From positions 1-64,000 of the forward strand of contig NZ_JABEQH010000013.1 of assembly GCF_014174305.1 (NCBI RefSeq): a stretch of 64,000 nucleotides of DNA. Reading direction: 5' to 3'. The stretch's first letter is position 1, and the number at the start of each line of letters is the position of its first letter. The notes beneath the pieces were generated by a model. That model was not told the origin of the DNA, ran no database searches, and saw only the letters and a program-made list of their open reading frames with translations. Positions 54,634-59,980 of the stretch are shown piece by piece. The position numbers were made by a program, and so were the translations under genes. Source of the DNA: Gluconacetobacter johannae (GTDB lineage: Bacteria > Pseudomonadota > Alphaproteobacteria > Acetobacterales > Acetobacteraceae).

Positions 54634-55350
54634 ATGCTGACGCGCAAGCAACATGAACTCCTGCTGTTCATCGACCGACACCTGAAACAGACGGGTTTTT
54701 CGCCCTCCTTCGATGAAATGAAGGATGCGCTGAACCTGCGATCCAAATCCGGAATCCATCGCCTGATTTCCGCGCTGGAGGAACGCGATTTCCTGAAACG
54801 GCGCCACCACCGCGCTCGCGCGCTGGAGGTGCTGCGCCTGCCCGAAGTCGCCCCGCCGGTGCAGGAGGACCCGCCGGCTCCACTGCCGGCCGAGGCCTTC
54901 GTGCCCAACGTCATCAAGGGCGATTTCGCCAGCCGCCTGACCGGCGCCCCGGTTGCGACCGAGGCCGGGGCCATCAATCTGCCGTTCTACGGGCGGATCG
55001 CCGCCGGCCAGCCGATCGAAGCCATGCGCGACACCGGCGCGCAGATCGAGGTCCCGCTGACGCTGCTGGGGTCGGGCGACCATTACGCGCTGGAGGTTGC
55101 GGGCGATTCGATGATCGAGGCCGGAATCCTGGACGGCGACACCGTCATCATCCGGCAAAGCGACAGGGCCGAGAACGGGCAGATCGTCGTCGCGCTGATC
55201 GACGATCTGGAGGTCACGCTGAAACGGCTGCGCCGGCGTGGCAGCACGATCGCCCTGGAGCCGGCCAACGCGCGCTACGAATCCCGCATCGTCCCATCGG
55301 ACCGCGTGCGTATCCAGGGGCTTCTGGTCGGCCTGCTGCGACAATATTAG
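54634..55350 (+). CDS. lexA: SOS repressor LexA
   Basis: A 238-residue repressor-protease. The N-terminal winged helix ([40 protein letters not shown]) binds DNA. Self-cleavage would occur at Ala124-Gly125 in GRIAAGQP. The Ser-Lys dyad is Ser159 ([10 protein letters not shown]) and Lys197 ([10 protein letters not shown]). RecA-stimulated cleavage derepresses SOS genes. The boxes upstream indicate autoregulation. Confidence 0.97.
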
Positions 55351-55357
55351 AGGTTGC

Positions 55358-56776
55358 TTAAAGGCGTCCCCGCCACAGGGCGTCGAAGGGCGGCAGCATC
55401 CCGGCCAGTTGTCCGACCTGTTCTGGTCCGATCGTCTCCAGATGCGGAAATTCCGCCAGGACCCTGGTTGCGCCGAACAGTGCAATCGCCCGTCGGGCCT
55501 CGGCGGACGGTGGTCCGTTCAGGATCACCCCGGCCACCGCAATCCCTCTTTGCCGCAGGGCCGACAAACTCATCAGCGTGTGGTTGATCGTGCCCAACTG
55601 GCTGCGTGCGACCAGGACCACCGGCAGGGCGAAGCGGGCGATCAAGTCGATCATCAGGCAATCCGCGCTGACGGGAACCATGATCCCCCCTGCCCCTTCG
55701 ACCACCAGCGGCCCGTCGTCGATCGCGGCCGGCAGGACGATGGCCTCGGCATCAATCGCGGTCCCTTCCCGTTCCGCCGCATCGAAGGGCGACAGGGGCG
55801 CCGCCAGGACGGCCGCGGGCGCGTGCAGGCGCGCGGTGTCCAGGCCGGCCAGCGCCGTGACCGTGTCGCTGTCGGCGGTCTCCTCGGCAATGCCGGTTTG
55901 CAGCGGTTTCCAGTAGGACGCATCCCACGCCCGCAGCAGGCAGGACGAGACCAGGGTCTTGCCCACACCGGTATCGGTACCGGTGACGAAGACCCCCTGC
56001 CGTGCGGGCCTGCGAAAAAGCCCGTAGCCAATCTCATAGCTCGCGGTGACCGCCCCGTCCTGCCCCAGGTCGCCCAGAAGGCGCCGCAACGTGCCTGGAT
56101 CGGCGGGCCGTGCCCCTTCACGCGGCAGCGAGGCGCCGATCTGGCGCAATTCCCGCACGAAATCGAGCGCCGTGGCCGGACGGTCGAGGATGGTCTCGCC
56201 GGCCCACCTGCCCTGGAGCGGCCAGGGCCGGTCCGCATCCAGTTGGCGCAGGTCCGGATAGGACGGCACCGGGCAGGCCAGGCCCCGTCGCGCGTAGGCC
56301 GCGCGCCATTCGGCGAAGCTGCCAGCGCACAGGGTGGACAACGCCAGCATGCCCCCCGGCGCCAGCAGACCAGCCAGCCGACCGAGTGCGCCCGCGCGGT
56401 CCCCGAACCATTGCATCGCCAGGCTGGAACAGACCAGGTCGAAGCTCTCGCCCGCCAGGGCCGGGCTTTCCGCGTCCATTGCCAGAAAACGGGTATCGCC
56501 CCCCAGCGGGGCCAGCCGCCGTCGCGCGCGCGCGACCATCGCGGGGGCCAGGTCGGTCACCGTCAGGGCGGCATCGGGGAACATCCGGCGCAGCATGTCG
56601 CTCAGGAAGCCGGTGCCGCACCCGATTTCCAGGATGCGGGCCGGTGGGGCGGCCGGATAGGCCGAGGCGATGCGATCGGCCAGACGGCGCGCCACCAGCA
56701 ACTGGACCCGCGCGACGGCATCATACGAATCGGCGCCGCCGAATCGCGCGGCGATCGCCTGGCGGCGTGTCGTCAT
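55358..56776 (-). CDS. Fused BioC-BioD: malonyl-ACP O-methyltransferase plus dethiobiotin synthetase
   Basis: One continuous 472-residue frame. Residues 1-258 match BioC: SAM motif ILEIGCGTGFLS (48-59), SSLAMQWFGD, FVRELRQIGAS and the terminal SYEIGYGLF. Residues 260-472 match BioD: P-loop GTDTGVGKT (266-274), KPLQTG (290-295), VVEGAGGIMVPVS and VARSQLGTINHT. BioC starts the disguised pimeloyl synthesis and BioD closes the ureido ring, so non-consecutive steps sit on one chain. There is practically no linker. The start MTTRRQAIAARFGGA is set by a 4-bp overlap with the esterase gene. Confidence 0.92.
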   Translation of the reverse strand: MTTRRQAIAARFGGADSYDAVARVQLLVARRLADRIASAYPAAPPARILEIGCGTGFLSDMLRRMFPDAALTVTDLAPAMVARARRRLAPLGGDTRFLAMDAESPALAGESFDLVCSSLAMQWFGDRAGALGRLAGLLAPGGMLALSTLCAGSFAEWRAAYARRGLACPVPSYPDLRQLDADRPWPLQGRWAGETILDRPATALDFVRELRQIGASLPREGARPADPGTLRRLLGDLGQDGAVTASYEIGYGLFRRPARQGVFVTGTDTGVGKTLVSSCLLRAWDASYWKPLQTGIAEETADSDTVTALAGLDTARLHAPAAVLAAPLSPFDAAEREGTAIDAEAIVLPAAIDDGPLVVEGAGGIMVPVSADCLMIDLIARFALPVVLVARSQLGTINHTLMSLSALRQRGIAVAGVILNGPPSAEARRAIALFGATRVLAEFPHLETIGPEQVGQLAGMLPPFDALWRGRL

Positions 56777-57459
56777 GCGCCCAGGCCCCTGCGCGTCATC
56801 CGCGATATGGCGGCGGCGCAGATGTCCGGATGGGTCAACGGCAGCAGATGTCCGCCATCCGCCACCCACTCGATCGGCACGGCGGTACTGAAACAGGTCC
56901 GGGTCATGTTCGCCGTCACAATTGGGTCGTCCAGCCCCGCAAGAACGGCCATGGGCGGCAGCGTCGCACCGATCGCCGCCTCGTCCAGCGCGGGGCGGGC
57001 GTCTTCGTCACGCAGCATTGCCAGCCCGGCCGCCAGTCGCCCGGCCTGGGCCGGGCCCGGCAGGTCGGCCGCGATTCCGGCGCGGCGGCGGAATGTCAGG
57101 ACAACGTCGTCGGGATTCTGTTCCAGGCCCTGGATCATGCGCCCGACGACGCGGGGCGGAACGCCCGCCGGAAAATCCGCCGCCGCGCTGAAGCGGGCAA
57201 AACCGTTAATCAGCACCATCCCGACGCACCCTTCAGGAGGATGGCGCAGCAGCCACAGCGCCCCCAGCGAATGACCGACGGCGACGAAGGGGCGCGCCGG
57301 ACGTGCCGCCATCCGCTCCGGCCCGAAAAATCCGAAATCGAGGTCAATTCCATCTGTCCTGCCCAGGGCGGAGCGGATGGGGGTCCAGAAACCGGGGGCG
57401 AATCCCCAGCCATGCACGAACATCAGGCCGGGCTCCGTCCCTGCCCGATCAGACGCCAA
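56773..57459 (-). CDS. BioH-like alpha/beta hydrolase (pimeloyl-ACP methyl ester esterase candidate)
   Basis: A 228-residue alpha/beta hydrolase: FVHGWGFAPGFW (oxyanion region), nucleophile elbow VGHSLGAL (Ser64), acidic residue in AGLDDPIV (Asp177/178) and catalytic His204 in DGGHLLPLTHPD. It sits between bioF and the bioC-bioD gene and overlaps both (11 bp and 4 bp). It therefore most likely removes the methyl group from pimeloyl-ACP methyl ester, the step that BioH does in E. coli. Assignment to BioH versus a non-orthologous type such as BioG or BioK cannot be made by eye. Confidence 0.82.
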   Translation of the reverse strand: MASDRAGTEPGLMFVHGWGFAPGFWTPIRSALGRTDGIDLDFGFFGPERMAARPARPFVAVGHSLGALWLLRHPPEGCVGMVLINGFARFSAAADFPAGVPPRVVGRMIQGLEQNPDDVVLTFRRRAGIAADLPGPAQAGRLAAGLAMLRDEDARPALDEAAIGATLPPMAVLAGLDDPIVTANMTRTCFSTAVPIEWVADGGHLLPLTHPDICAAAISRMTRRGLGA

Positions 57460-58645
57460 GGCCGAGGTCCTTCACGGCGGCGCCCAGCGCATGCAGCAGG
57501 CTGTCGATCATGTCGTCCCCATGTGCGGCGCTGAGCGCCAGGCGGATGCGCGCCCCGCCCGCCGGCACCGTCGGTGGGCGGATCGCCGTGCCGACGATGC
57601 CGCGTGCCGCCAATGCCTGCGCCAGGGCCAGCGCCGCTCCGGATTCCCCCACCATGACAGGGACGATCTGGGTGCTGGACGCGCCGGTGGACAGGCCCAG
57701 GGCCGCGACGGCCGACCGCACCCGGTCACCCAGGCCGGCCAGGCGGCGCCGTTCGTCGTCCAGGCTCGGCACGAGGTCGAGTGCCGCGTCGATCGCGCCC
57801 AGGACCCCTGGCGGCAGGGCGGTCGTATAGATGAAGCCCGAACAGGTGCTGGTCAGCCAGTCGCACAGCGCCCGTGACCCCGCGATATAGGCGCCGAACC
57901 CGCCCAGGGCCTTGCTGAACGTTCCCATGGTCAGGTCGACGCCGCCGGCCGCGACGGACAACCCCCGGCCGCCCGGCCCCAGGACGCCGGTCGCGTGGGC
58001 CTCGTCCAGATACAGGAACGCATCGTGCCGATGGGCCAGCGCGCGCAGGGCCGCGACGTCCGCACGGTCGCCATCCATGCTGAACACGCTTTCGGTCACG
58101 ATGAAGCGCAGGCCCGGCTCGGCCCGGCGCTGTTCAAGAAGACGCTGGAGATGGTCGATATCGTTATGCGCGAAGCGGATCTGCCGTATGCCGGCGGCCA
58201 TGCAGCCATGATGTAGGCTGGCGTGGTTCAGCCGGTCGGTAAAGACCACGGCCGGGGCGCCGGTCTGCTCGGCCGACAGGCGGAACAGCGCCGGCAGGAC
58301 GGCCGCGTTGGCCTGCCAGCCCGATGCCAGCAGCAAGGCGGCCTCCGTGCCCTTGAAACGGGCCAGCTTGTCCTCGACCGACAGATGCTGCGTGCTGGTG
58401 CCCGTCACCAGCCGCGACGCGCCGCTGCCGGTTCCGAACCGGTCGGTCCATTCGGCGGCGCGCCGGCGCAGGGCGGGATGCCAGGACAGGCCCAGATAGT
58501 CGTTCGATGAAAAATTCAGCAGCCTTGCGCCGTCCCTGCGAACGACCACCGGCCCCTCGCGCCCGACCGGCGACAGGCTGCGACGCACCTGTCGTCGGGA
58601 CAGGTCGTCCAGGGCGCTCTGGAAAAAAGGATCGAAACGGGTCAT
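57449..58645 (-). CDS. bioF: 8-amino-7-oxononanoate synthase
   Basis: From MTRFDPFFQSALDDLSRRQV the protein is 398 residues. NFSSNDYLGLSWHP, GSGASRLVTGTSTQH, LYLDEAHATGVLG and the PLP-lysine motif GTFSKALGGFGAY are the family landmarks. It joins pimeloyl-ACP and alanine to give KAPA. It is the first gene of bioF-bioH-bioCD and is divergent from bioA with only 51 bp between the starts. Confidence 0.95.
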   Translation of the reverse strand: MTRFDPFFQSALDDLSRRQVRRSLSPVGREGPVVVRRDGARLLNFSSNDYLGLSWHPALRRRAAEWTDRFGTGSGASRLVTGTSTQHLSVEDKLARFKGTEAALLLASGWQANAAVLPALFRLSAEQTGAPAVVFTDRLNHASLHHGCMAAGIRQIRFAHNDIDHLQRLLEQRRAEPGLRFIVTESVFSMDGDRADVAALRALAHRHDAFLYLDEAHATGVLGPGGRGLSVAAGGVDLTMGTFSKALGGFGAYIAGSRALCDWLTSTCSGFIYTTALPPGVLGAIDAALDLVPSLDDERRRLAGLGDRVRSAVAALGLSTGASSTQIVPVMVGESGAALALAQALAARGIVGTAIRPPTVPAGGARIRLALSAAHGDDMIDSLLHALGAAVKDLGLGV

Positions 58646-58696: not shown

Positions 58697-59980
58697 ATGT
58701 CGGAGGACGCAGCGATGACCGCGCCGGACTGGTTCGAGGCCGGATTGCCCCATATCTGGCTGCCCTACACGCAGATGCACACGGCATCGCCTCCGCTGGC
58801 CGCCGTCGCGACCGACGGCTGCCGGATCCGGCTGGCCGACGGTCGCGAACTGATCGACGGCATCGCGTCCTGGTGGACGGCCTGCCACGGATATAACCAT
58901 CCCTACATCCGGCAGGCCGCCACCCAGCAGTTGGCGCGCATGCCGCACGTCATGTTCGGCGGGCTGGTGCATGAACCGGCGTTGCGTCTGGCGCATCGCC
59001 TGGCCGGCCTGTTGCCGGGTGACCTGGAGCGCGTGTTCTTCACCGATTCCGGGTCCGTCGCCGTCGAAGTCGCGATCAAGATGGCGATCCAGTACTGGCT
59101 GAACCGGGGCGAGAACCGGCGCACCCGCCTGGTGGCGTTTCGTGGCGGCTACCACGGGGACACCCTGGCGACGATGGCCGTCTGCGACCCCGAGGAAGGG
59201 ATGCACAGCCTGTTTTCAGGGGTCCTGCCGACGCATCTCATTGCCGACCTGCCCCGCGACGACGCATCGCGGGCGGCGCTGGACGCCCTGCTGGTCACCG
59301 AAGGCGAAACTGTGGCGGCGATCCTGGTCGAACCGCTGGTCCAGGGTGCGGGCGGGATGGTCTTCCACGATCCGGCGACCCTGCGTCATCTGCGCGCCCT
59401 CGCCGATCGCCATGGAATCCTGCTGGTCTTCGATGAAATCTTCACCGGGTTCGGACGCACCGGCACGTTCTTCGCCTGCCAGCAGGCCGGGGTGGTGCCG
59501 GATATCGTGACGCTGTCCAAGGCGCTGTCGGGCGGCACCGTGCCCCTGGCCGCGACCGTCGCCCGGCGGCATGTCTATGAGGCCTTCCTGTCCGATAATC
59601 CGCTGCATGCCCTGATGCATGGCCCGACCTTCATGGCCAATCCTCTAGCCTGCGCGTGCGCCAACGCGTCGCTGGACCTGTTCGCGCGCGAGCCGCGCCT
59701 GGAACAGGTCGCGGCGATCGGCGCGCAGATGCACACGGAACTGGAATCGTGTCGCCACCTGCCGGGCGTCCGGGACGTGCGGGTCATGGGGGCCATCGGT
59801 GTCGTGGAACTGGAGCGGATCGAAGACATGAACCGCCTGAAGGCGCGTCTTGTCGACCAGGGCGTCTGGATCCGCCCGTTCCGGACGATCGTCTATCTGA
59901 CGCCATCCTTCACCATCGCGCCGTCCGAACTGGCGCATCTGACCCGCGCCATCCGGACCGTATTGTCCGATCCGGCCTGA
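58697..59980 (+). CDS. bioA: Adenosylmethionine-8-amino-7-oxononanoate aminotransferase
   Basis: A 427-residue class III aminotransferase. WLPYTQMHTASPPLAAVATD, GIASWWTACHGYNHP, RGGYHGDTLATMAV and the PLP-lysine motif TLSKALSGG identify BioA. It aminates KAPA to DAPA using SAM. GPTFMANPLACACANASLDL is another BioA signature. An ATG at 58715 is a possible alternative start. bioB is not in the window. Confidence 0.95.
   Translation: MSEDAAMTAPDWFEAGLPHIWLPYTQMHTASPPLAAVATDGCRIRLADGRELIDGIASWWTACHGYNHPYIRQAATQQLARMPHVMFGGLVHEPALRLAHRLAGLLPGDLERVFFTDSGSVAVEVAIKMAIQYWLNRGENRRTRLVAFRGGYHGDTLATMAVCDPEEGMHSLFSGVLPTHLIADLPRDDASRAALDALLVTEGETVAAILVEPLVQGAGGMVFHDPATLRHLRALADRHGILLVFDEIFTGFGRTGTFFACQQAGVVPDIVTLSKALSGGTVPLAATVARRHVYEAFLSDNPLHALMHGPTFMANPLACACANASLDLFAREPRLEQVAAIGAQMHTELESCRHLPGVRDVRVMGAIGVVELERIEDMNRLKARLVDQGVWIRPFRTIVYLTPSFTIAPSELAHLTRAIRTVLSDPA

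Follow-up and report, generated by a model that had tools for sequence, protein, structure and literature searches.

What, if anything, is gained by joining the first enzyme of biotin synthesis to the penultimate one in a single polypeptide chain? The question is raised by a gene in the 64,000-nucleotide stretch of DNA analysed here (the window), in which a complete BioC-like methyltransferase runs directly into a complete dethiobiotin synthetase, BioD. BioC carries out the first step of the pathway, forming the methyl ester that allows pimelate to be assembled by fatty acid synthesis, while BioD closes the ureido ring in the penultimate step. A preliminary description of this DNA had already placed both enzymes in one polypeptide, and its coordinates proved correct, the gene being a single open frame on the minus strand with no internal stop across its 472 residues. 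The gene, its parts, and its neighbours in the biotin cluster are the following:

55358..56776, minus strand: bioCD fusion gene, 472 aa, with ATG at 56776-56774 and stop codon at 55358-55360
56009..56776, minus strand: BioC-like malonyl-ACP O-methyltransferase domain, about residues 1-256, with the SAM motif LEIGCGTG at 49-56
55997..56011, minus strand: junction RPARQ, residues 256-260, placed from the predicted model and the sequence
55361..56002, minus strand: BioD dethiobiotin synthetase domain, about residues 259-472, with the P-loop GTDTGVGKT
56773..57459, minus strand: BioH-like alpha/beta hydrolase with a GHSLG motif, 228 aa if the start is the TTG at 57459
57449..58645, minus strand: bioF, overlapping the BioH-like frame, its ATG at 58645-58643 being our own reading
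58697..59980, plus strand: bioA, divergent from bioF, with 602.7 bits against NF004624 (cut-off 494) and 537.9 against TIGR00508 (cut-off 405)

In the C-terminal half, residues 260-452 match Pfam AAA_26 (E 1.7e-63), the family that includes BioD, and residues 263-420 score 147.3 bits against the NCBIfam bioD model TIGR00347, above its curated cut-off of 83.3; the source genome has two matches to the bioD model, and bioCD alone exceeds that cut-off. The motifs of BioD are a P-loop GxxxxGKT, a KP, and EGAGG, and this half has all three types, aligns to E. coli BioD, and was matched to solved BioD proteins by Foldseek. The three motif types are also kept in the 56 fused rows of our alignment, which represent 51 genomes (source included) plus five named contigs, three of them duplicating sampled genomes. 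The claim that both halves have intact motifs holds as well, with GTDTGVGKT, YWKP, EGAGG, and LEIGCGTG all found and with most residues of the BioD motifs and the SAM motif at least 95% conserved in the 56 fused rows.

For the N-terminal half, seven Pfam methyltransferase families match within residues 18-157, and the NCBIfam BioC model TIGR02072 aligns to residues 15-255 (model 6-243 of 244) with 146.9 bits, under its equivalog cut-off of 184.95; all 14 control genomes gave some match to this model, and one of them was above the cut-off. Since the cut-off is missed, the name BioC rests on whole-length resemblance, context, and fold. Foldseek paired this half with the solved BioC 8x8j (titled AbBioc; E 6.9e-12, 20% identity), of class I SAM methyltransferase fold, and put the methyltransferase OxaG 5w7k (E 4.3e-12) slightly ahead of it, so that the fold match is not specific to BioC. 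The source genome contains 11 matches to the BioC model, with bioCD the best at 149 bits. The runner-up, at 96.9 bits, is a second protein encoded outside the window (G000:C13:73803-74384), which we suppose may be an alphaproteobacterial relative of NDUFAF5. Across the 56 fused rows, 30 positions of the BioC half are at least 95% conserved.

The predicted model of the protein (mean pLDDT 90.6 and pTM 0.80, with 67 aligned rows as input) puts the final BioC strand at 245-255 and the initial BioD strand at 261-266, with five residues between them, and these strand ends (255 and 261) match the domain limits 1-258 and 260-472 of the preliminary description. Likewise, the strand that starts BioD lies within a few residues of the final BioC strand in the 56 fused rows, with no inserted domain and with slight variation in junction length between lineages. 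Between 25 codons upstream and 7 codons downstream of F263 (the F of FVTGTDT), the source gene lacks any in-frame ATG, GTG, or TTG, and a separate translation of its BioD half is therefore unlikely; in 37 of the 56 fused rows (ATG in 12), at least one of these codons occurs in frame within the last 16 codons ahead of the BioD core, in some cases with a purine-rich stretch upstream, so that separate BioD translation may occur in some of the fused relatives. At the split loci of the family, an ATG of the bioD frame and the bioC stop overlap exactly as ATGA in 11 of 25 cases.

The fusion gene is the third of a tight, overlapping minus-strand set of bioF, BioH-like gene, and bioCD, in which the TGA of the BioH-like gene overlaps the bioCD ATG (ATGA, 56776-56773). 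The hydrolase matches Abhydrolase_6 (E 1.5e-7) and scores 41 bits against the bioH model TIGR01738, under its cut-off of 206.95, and for this reason we label it BioH-like only; the bioF assignment corresponds to a TIGR00858 match on 57452-58612 of 415.3 bits, slightly under the cut-off of 426.45. A bioB match above its cut-off lies on a different contig of the source genome, and together with bioF, bioA, the BioH-like gene, and bioCD, it makes the late biotin pathway look complete. Apart from the source locus, 53 of 55 fused loci have same-strand matches to BioF and to the BioH-like protein upstream, as do all 25 split loci of the family. The operon layout tracks the state of the pair: 22 of the 25 split loci have an upstream bioA in the same orientation, whereas a bioA match was found at 22 of the 55 other fused loci and always on the opposite strand, 28 of the other 33 being short loci. 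Three loci (L124, L132, and L133) are split, yet have a divergent bioA. On the other side of bioCD, a plus-strand frame at 54634-55350 of the window, presumably a LexA-like repressor by its sequence features, converges on the fusion gene with seven bases between the two stop codons.

How widespread the fusion is was examined in samples of relatives, a check that the preliminary description had proposed. Uninterrupted fusions are present in 51 of 299 sampled Acetobacteraceae genomes, source included, from 17 genera, among them all six other sampled genomes of the genus. Separate tandem genes, bioC and then a close bioD, occur in 25 of the 299 (nine genera), and the rest have no bioC-bioD pair among the matches listed. 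A contig scan, in which 80 loci from 149 relatives were kept, gave five fused contigs, each from the Acetobacteraceae (Gluconacetobacter azotocaptans, G. tumulisoli, Novacetimonas hansenii, G. entanii, and N. maltaceti), three of them with rows that the tree shows as identical to those of sampled genomes. A stop or frameshift near 55995-56005, named in advance as the observation that would undo the fusion, is absent, and the junction is open in all 56 fused rows.

Among the matches listed for a class sample of 385 genomes and a phylum sample of 398, which partly overlap, none outside the family ran without a stop through most of both halves. Long open frames or single-stop matches drew attention to six candidates outside the family (G318, G638, G415, G510, G439, and G407), all of which have a stop between the halves, and in a further candidate, G340, the best BioC and BioD matches lie in different frames. 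A search of 72,556 plasmid records gave 116 matches, seven of them over at least 80% of the query and all seven from Azospirillum, matching over 96% of the protein and all annotated "bioD: dethiobiotin synthase". With these seven records, the idea that the fusion is limited to Acetobacteraceae was dropped; it is frequent in acetic acid bacteria, yet it is found beyond Acetobacteraceae too. The BioC-BioD fusion is real, conserved, and widespread.

Several single loci were recorded alongside this survey. In one alphaproteobacterium (L189, from G403), BioH-like and BioC-like sequences apparently share one open minus-strand frame of 541 aa with bioD apart, which appears to be a fusion at the neighbouring junction of the operon. 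Two loci (L142 and L143, from G273 and G296) have bioC and bioD in the same frame with one TAA and then an ATG between them. At L130 (G136), the BioD match is divided between two frames (query 260-331 and 315-471), and this separate bioD thus looks broken or holds a sequence error. Finally, L164 (G031) has a divergent bioCD fusion at 1204-2574, shortly after bioF, with no BioH-like match between the two and with a long branch in the trees.

For the history of the fusion, the doubtful BioC match L110 was dropped from the 45 split rows, leaving 100 rows in all. Fused and split rows cluster on the trees, where none of 500 shuffles gave a value as low, a result to which near-copies contribute. A 91-row tree, with nine distant or duplicate rows left out, has a split clade nested in fused lineages and needs five changes, three of them forced by starred branches. 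When the long or doubtful rows L164, L124, L134, L132, L133, and L051 were also removed, the quick tree of the 85 remaining rows needed three changes, and a single fused clade was not rejected (p-AU 0.81, the tree constrained to that clade being even better); the careful tree of the same rows needed two changes, one of them forced, and 0% of 200 bootstrap trees needed only one. A tree that included three Azospirillum rows and omitted 28 of the resulting 103 rows needed two changes, both forced. The number and direction of the changes between fused and split forms thus vary with the rows kept, and these trees are consistent either with a possible single early fusion that was later split again within one acetic acid bacterial clade or with separate fusions. 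The fusion itself probably came about through loss of the stop and restart separating tandem and often overlapping bioC and bioD genes.

We consider it likely that bioCD encodes a bifunctional biotin enzyme, with both activities inferred. The N-terminal BioC domain would initiate the pimelate chain by methylating malonyl-ACP, the BioD domain at the C-terminus would produce dethiobiotin by closing the ureido ring, and most likely the two halves catalyse independently. It had been argued at the outset that this is not simple channelling, and established pathway knowledge agrees, direct channelling being unexpected between a first and a penultimate step. Given that BioC and BioD share no intermediate, the reasonable benefits of the fusion are a fixed dose, regulation as a single product, or support for an enzyme that is awkward, and it is also reasonable that there is no benefit at all. 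The likeliest effect would be a fixed 1:1 dose of BioC and BioD per translation event, and whether that dose brings a real benefit seems to us evenly balanced. More speculatively, BioD might hold BioC through a presumed homodimer. The separate genes of 25 of the 299 relatives indicate that any benefit of fusion is dispensable.

It is quite possible, if somewhat short of an even chance, that the fusion is neutral, a small mutation having merged two neighbours into a bifunctional protein that tolerates a useless tether. Such an origin is compatible with bifunctionality, and it is favoured by the occurrence of fused and split tandem forms within one family (51 and 25 of 299), by the slightly different junction lengths among lineages, and by the non-consecutive steps of the two enzymes. 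Persistence of the fused form across 17 genera speaks against it, and so does the selection seen at the junction, where dN/dS over 19 codons is 0.05-0.19, which is a weak argument because few codons are involved and dS there exceeds 0.9 in five of the six within-genus pairs compared, two of which are with named Gluconacetobacter. In the same six comparisons, dN/dS (by NG86, in a Biopython module marked experimental) was 0.15-0.34 for BioC, 0.18-0.33 for BioD, and 0.16-0.32 for the whole gene, values that point to purifying selection on both halves.

Rather unlikely, in our estimate, is that the fusion serves as a stabiliser or brake for BioC, with a BioD homodimer holding two BioC domains and so either keeping BioC soluble or limiting a draw on malonyl-ACP that is harmful in excess. 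BioD is a homodimer, and the junction is very short in the predicted model, both of which favour this possibility. According to the accessible text of a 2024 review, BioC overproduced in E. coli is prone to form inclusion bodies, and soluble B. cereus BioC blocks fatty acid synthesis (PMC11089781); these statements would fit the two suggestions of the preliminary description, equal expression and relief of BioC instability. The B. cereus enzyme, however, is described as monomeric (PMC3494674, in the part available) and soluble (PMC11089781), which argues that BioC need not be held. Going one step further, BioCD might act as a built-in control of pathway entry, in which two BioC domains carried on a BioD homodimer would change in activity or lifetime depending on whether BioD has its late substrate or nucleotide bound. 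We regard this as a long shot; if true, the penultimate step would report to the first and keep the malonyl-ACP methylating enzyme low.

That only the BioD half functions, the BioC half having decayed or taken up some other methylation, is very improbable. The BioC score beneath the equivalog cut-off and the second protein that matches the BioC model (96.9 bits) could be read in its favour, but the BioC half is under purifying selection, keeps its 30 highly conserved positions in the fused rows, and is encoded directly after a BioH-like gene and bioF. An assembly artefact or frameshift that merged two genes has a negligible chance and was ruled out by the same open junction, uninterrupted, in all six other congeneric genomes sampled and in 44 more from the family.

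Fusions elsewhere in the biotin pathway are already known, and the bifunctional BioCD proposed here can be compared with them. In Arabidopsis, the DAPA aminotransferase-DTB synthetase (of the BioD-BioA kind, PDB 4a0g), which Foldseek also matched, likewise has BioD fused to a biotin enzyme. BioA acts directly before BioD, and channelling is plausible in the Arabidopsis fusion; in contrast, the partner in bioCD, BioC, belongs to the start of the pathway. The BioG-BioC protein of B. fragilis is similar in that BioC is fused to a neighbour from the biotin operon, the steps are non-consecutive, and relatives keep separate genes; it differs in its partner, the pimeloyl-ACP methyl ester esterase, in its ten-residue linker, and in that both activities were shown, as described in the available part of PMC3494674. 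In bioCD, the partner is BioD on the C-terminal side, and both activities are predicted ones. The B. fragilis fusion replaces both E. coli enzymes (PMC3494674, same part), showing that a BioC fusion can retain both activities. BioWF is another natural two-domain fusion of biotin enzymes, but it joins consecutive steps, pimeloyl-CoA synthetase and BioF (PMC9544090, in its accessible portion). The two genes also stand in this order in the tandem bioC-bioD pairs of Magnetospirillum-like bacteria and other acetic acid bacteria, often overlapping, which differ by the stop and restart between the genes. The Azospirillum bioCD (NZ_CP012917.1 and six further plasmid records) is the same fusion, with 54-56% identity across 96% of the protein, and in three of these records a CDS of 469-473 aa annotated bioD lies in the order bioF, hydrolase, bioCD, bioA, bioB on one strand, whereas the source genome has a divergent bioA and its bioB on a different contig.

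Whether the fusion had been described was left in doubt by the preliminary description, and this is answered in part: no paper on a BioC-BioD pairing was found among the matches listed in the open-access literature, and the plasmid records already carry the fusion under the name bioD. No BioC-BioD fusion was seen in the accessible parts of PMC5438404, PMC545781, PMC4751477, PMC7026016, PMC5664097, and PMC11089781, and the word biotin is absent from the main text of the fusion survey PMC4921024. In the available part of a paper on an insect symbiont of the Acetobacteraceae, "bioCD" denotes two pseudogenised genes (PMC11264691). A prior mention of the pairing in the literature is possible. The fusion is easily missed, since databases may name only one half of it; with the Azospirillum fusions named dethiobiotin synthase only, and with the BioC half under its cut-off, automatic reconstructions may wrongly report BioC as missing.

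In summary, the BioC-BioD fusion is probably a modest and ordinary variation on the biotin pathway. BioC is reportedly hard to produce, so this naturally fused version of it is worth trying in biotin engineering, and the Acetobacteraceae, having both the fused and the split forms, offer a natural test of why genes fuse.
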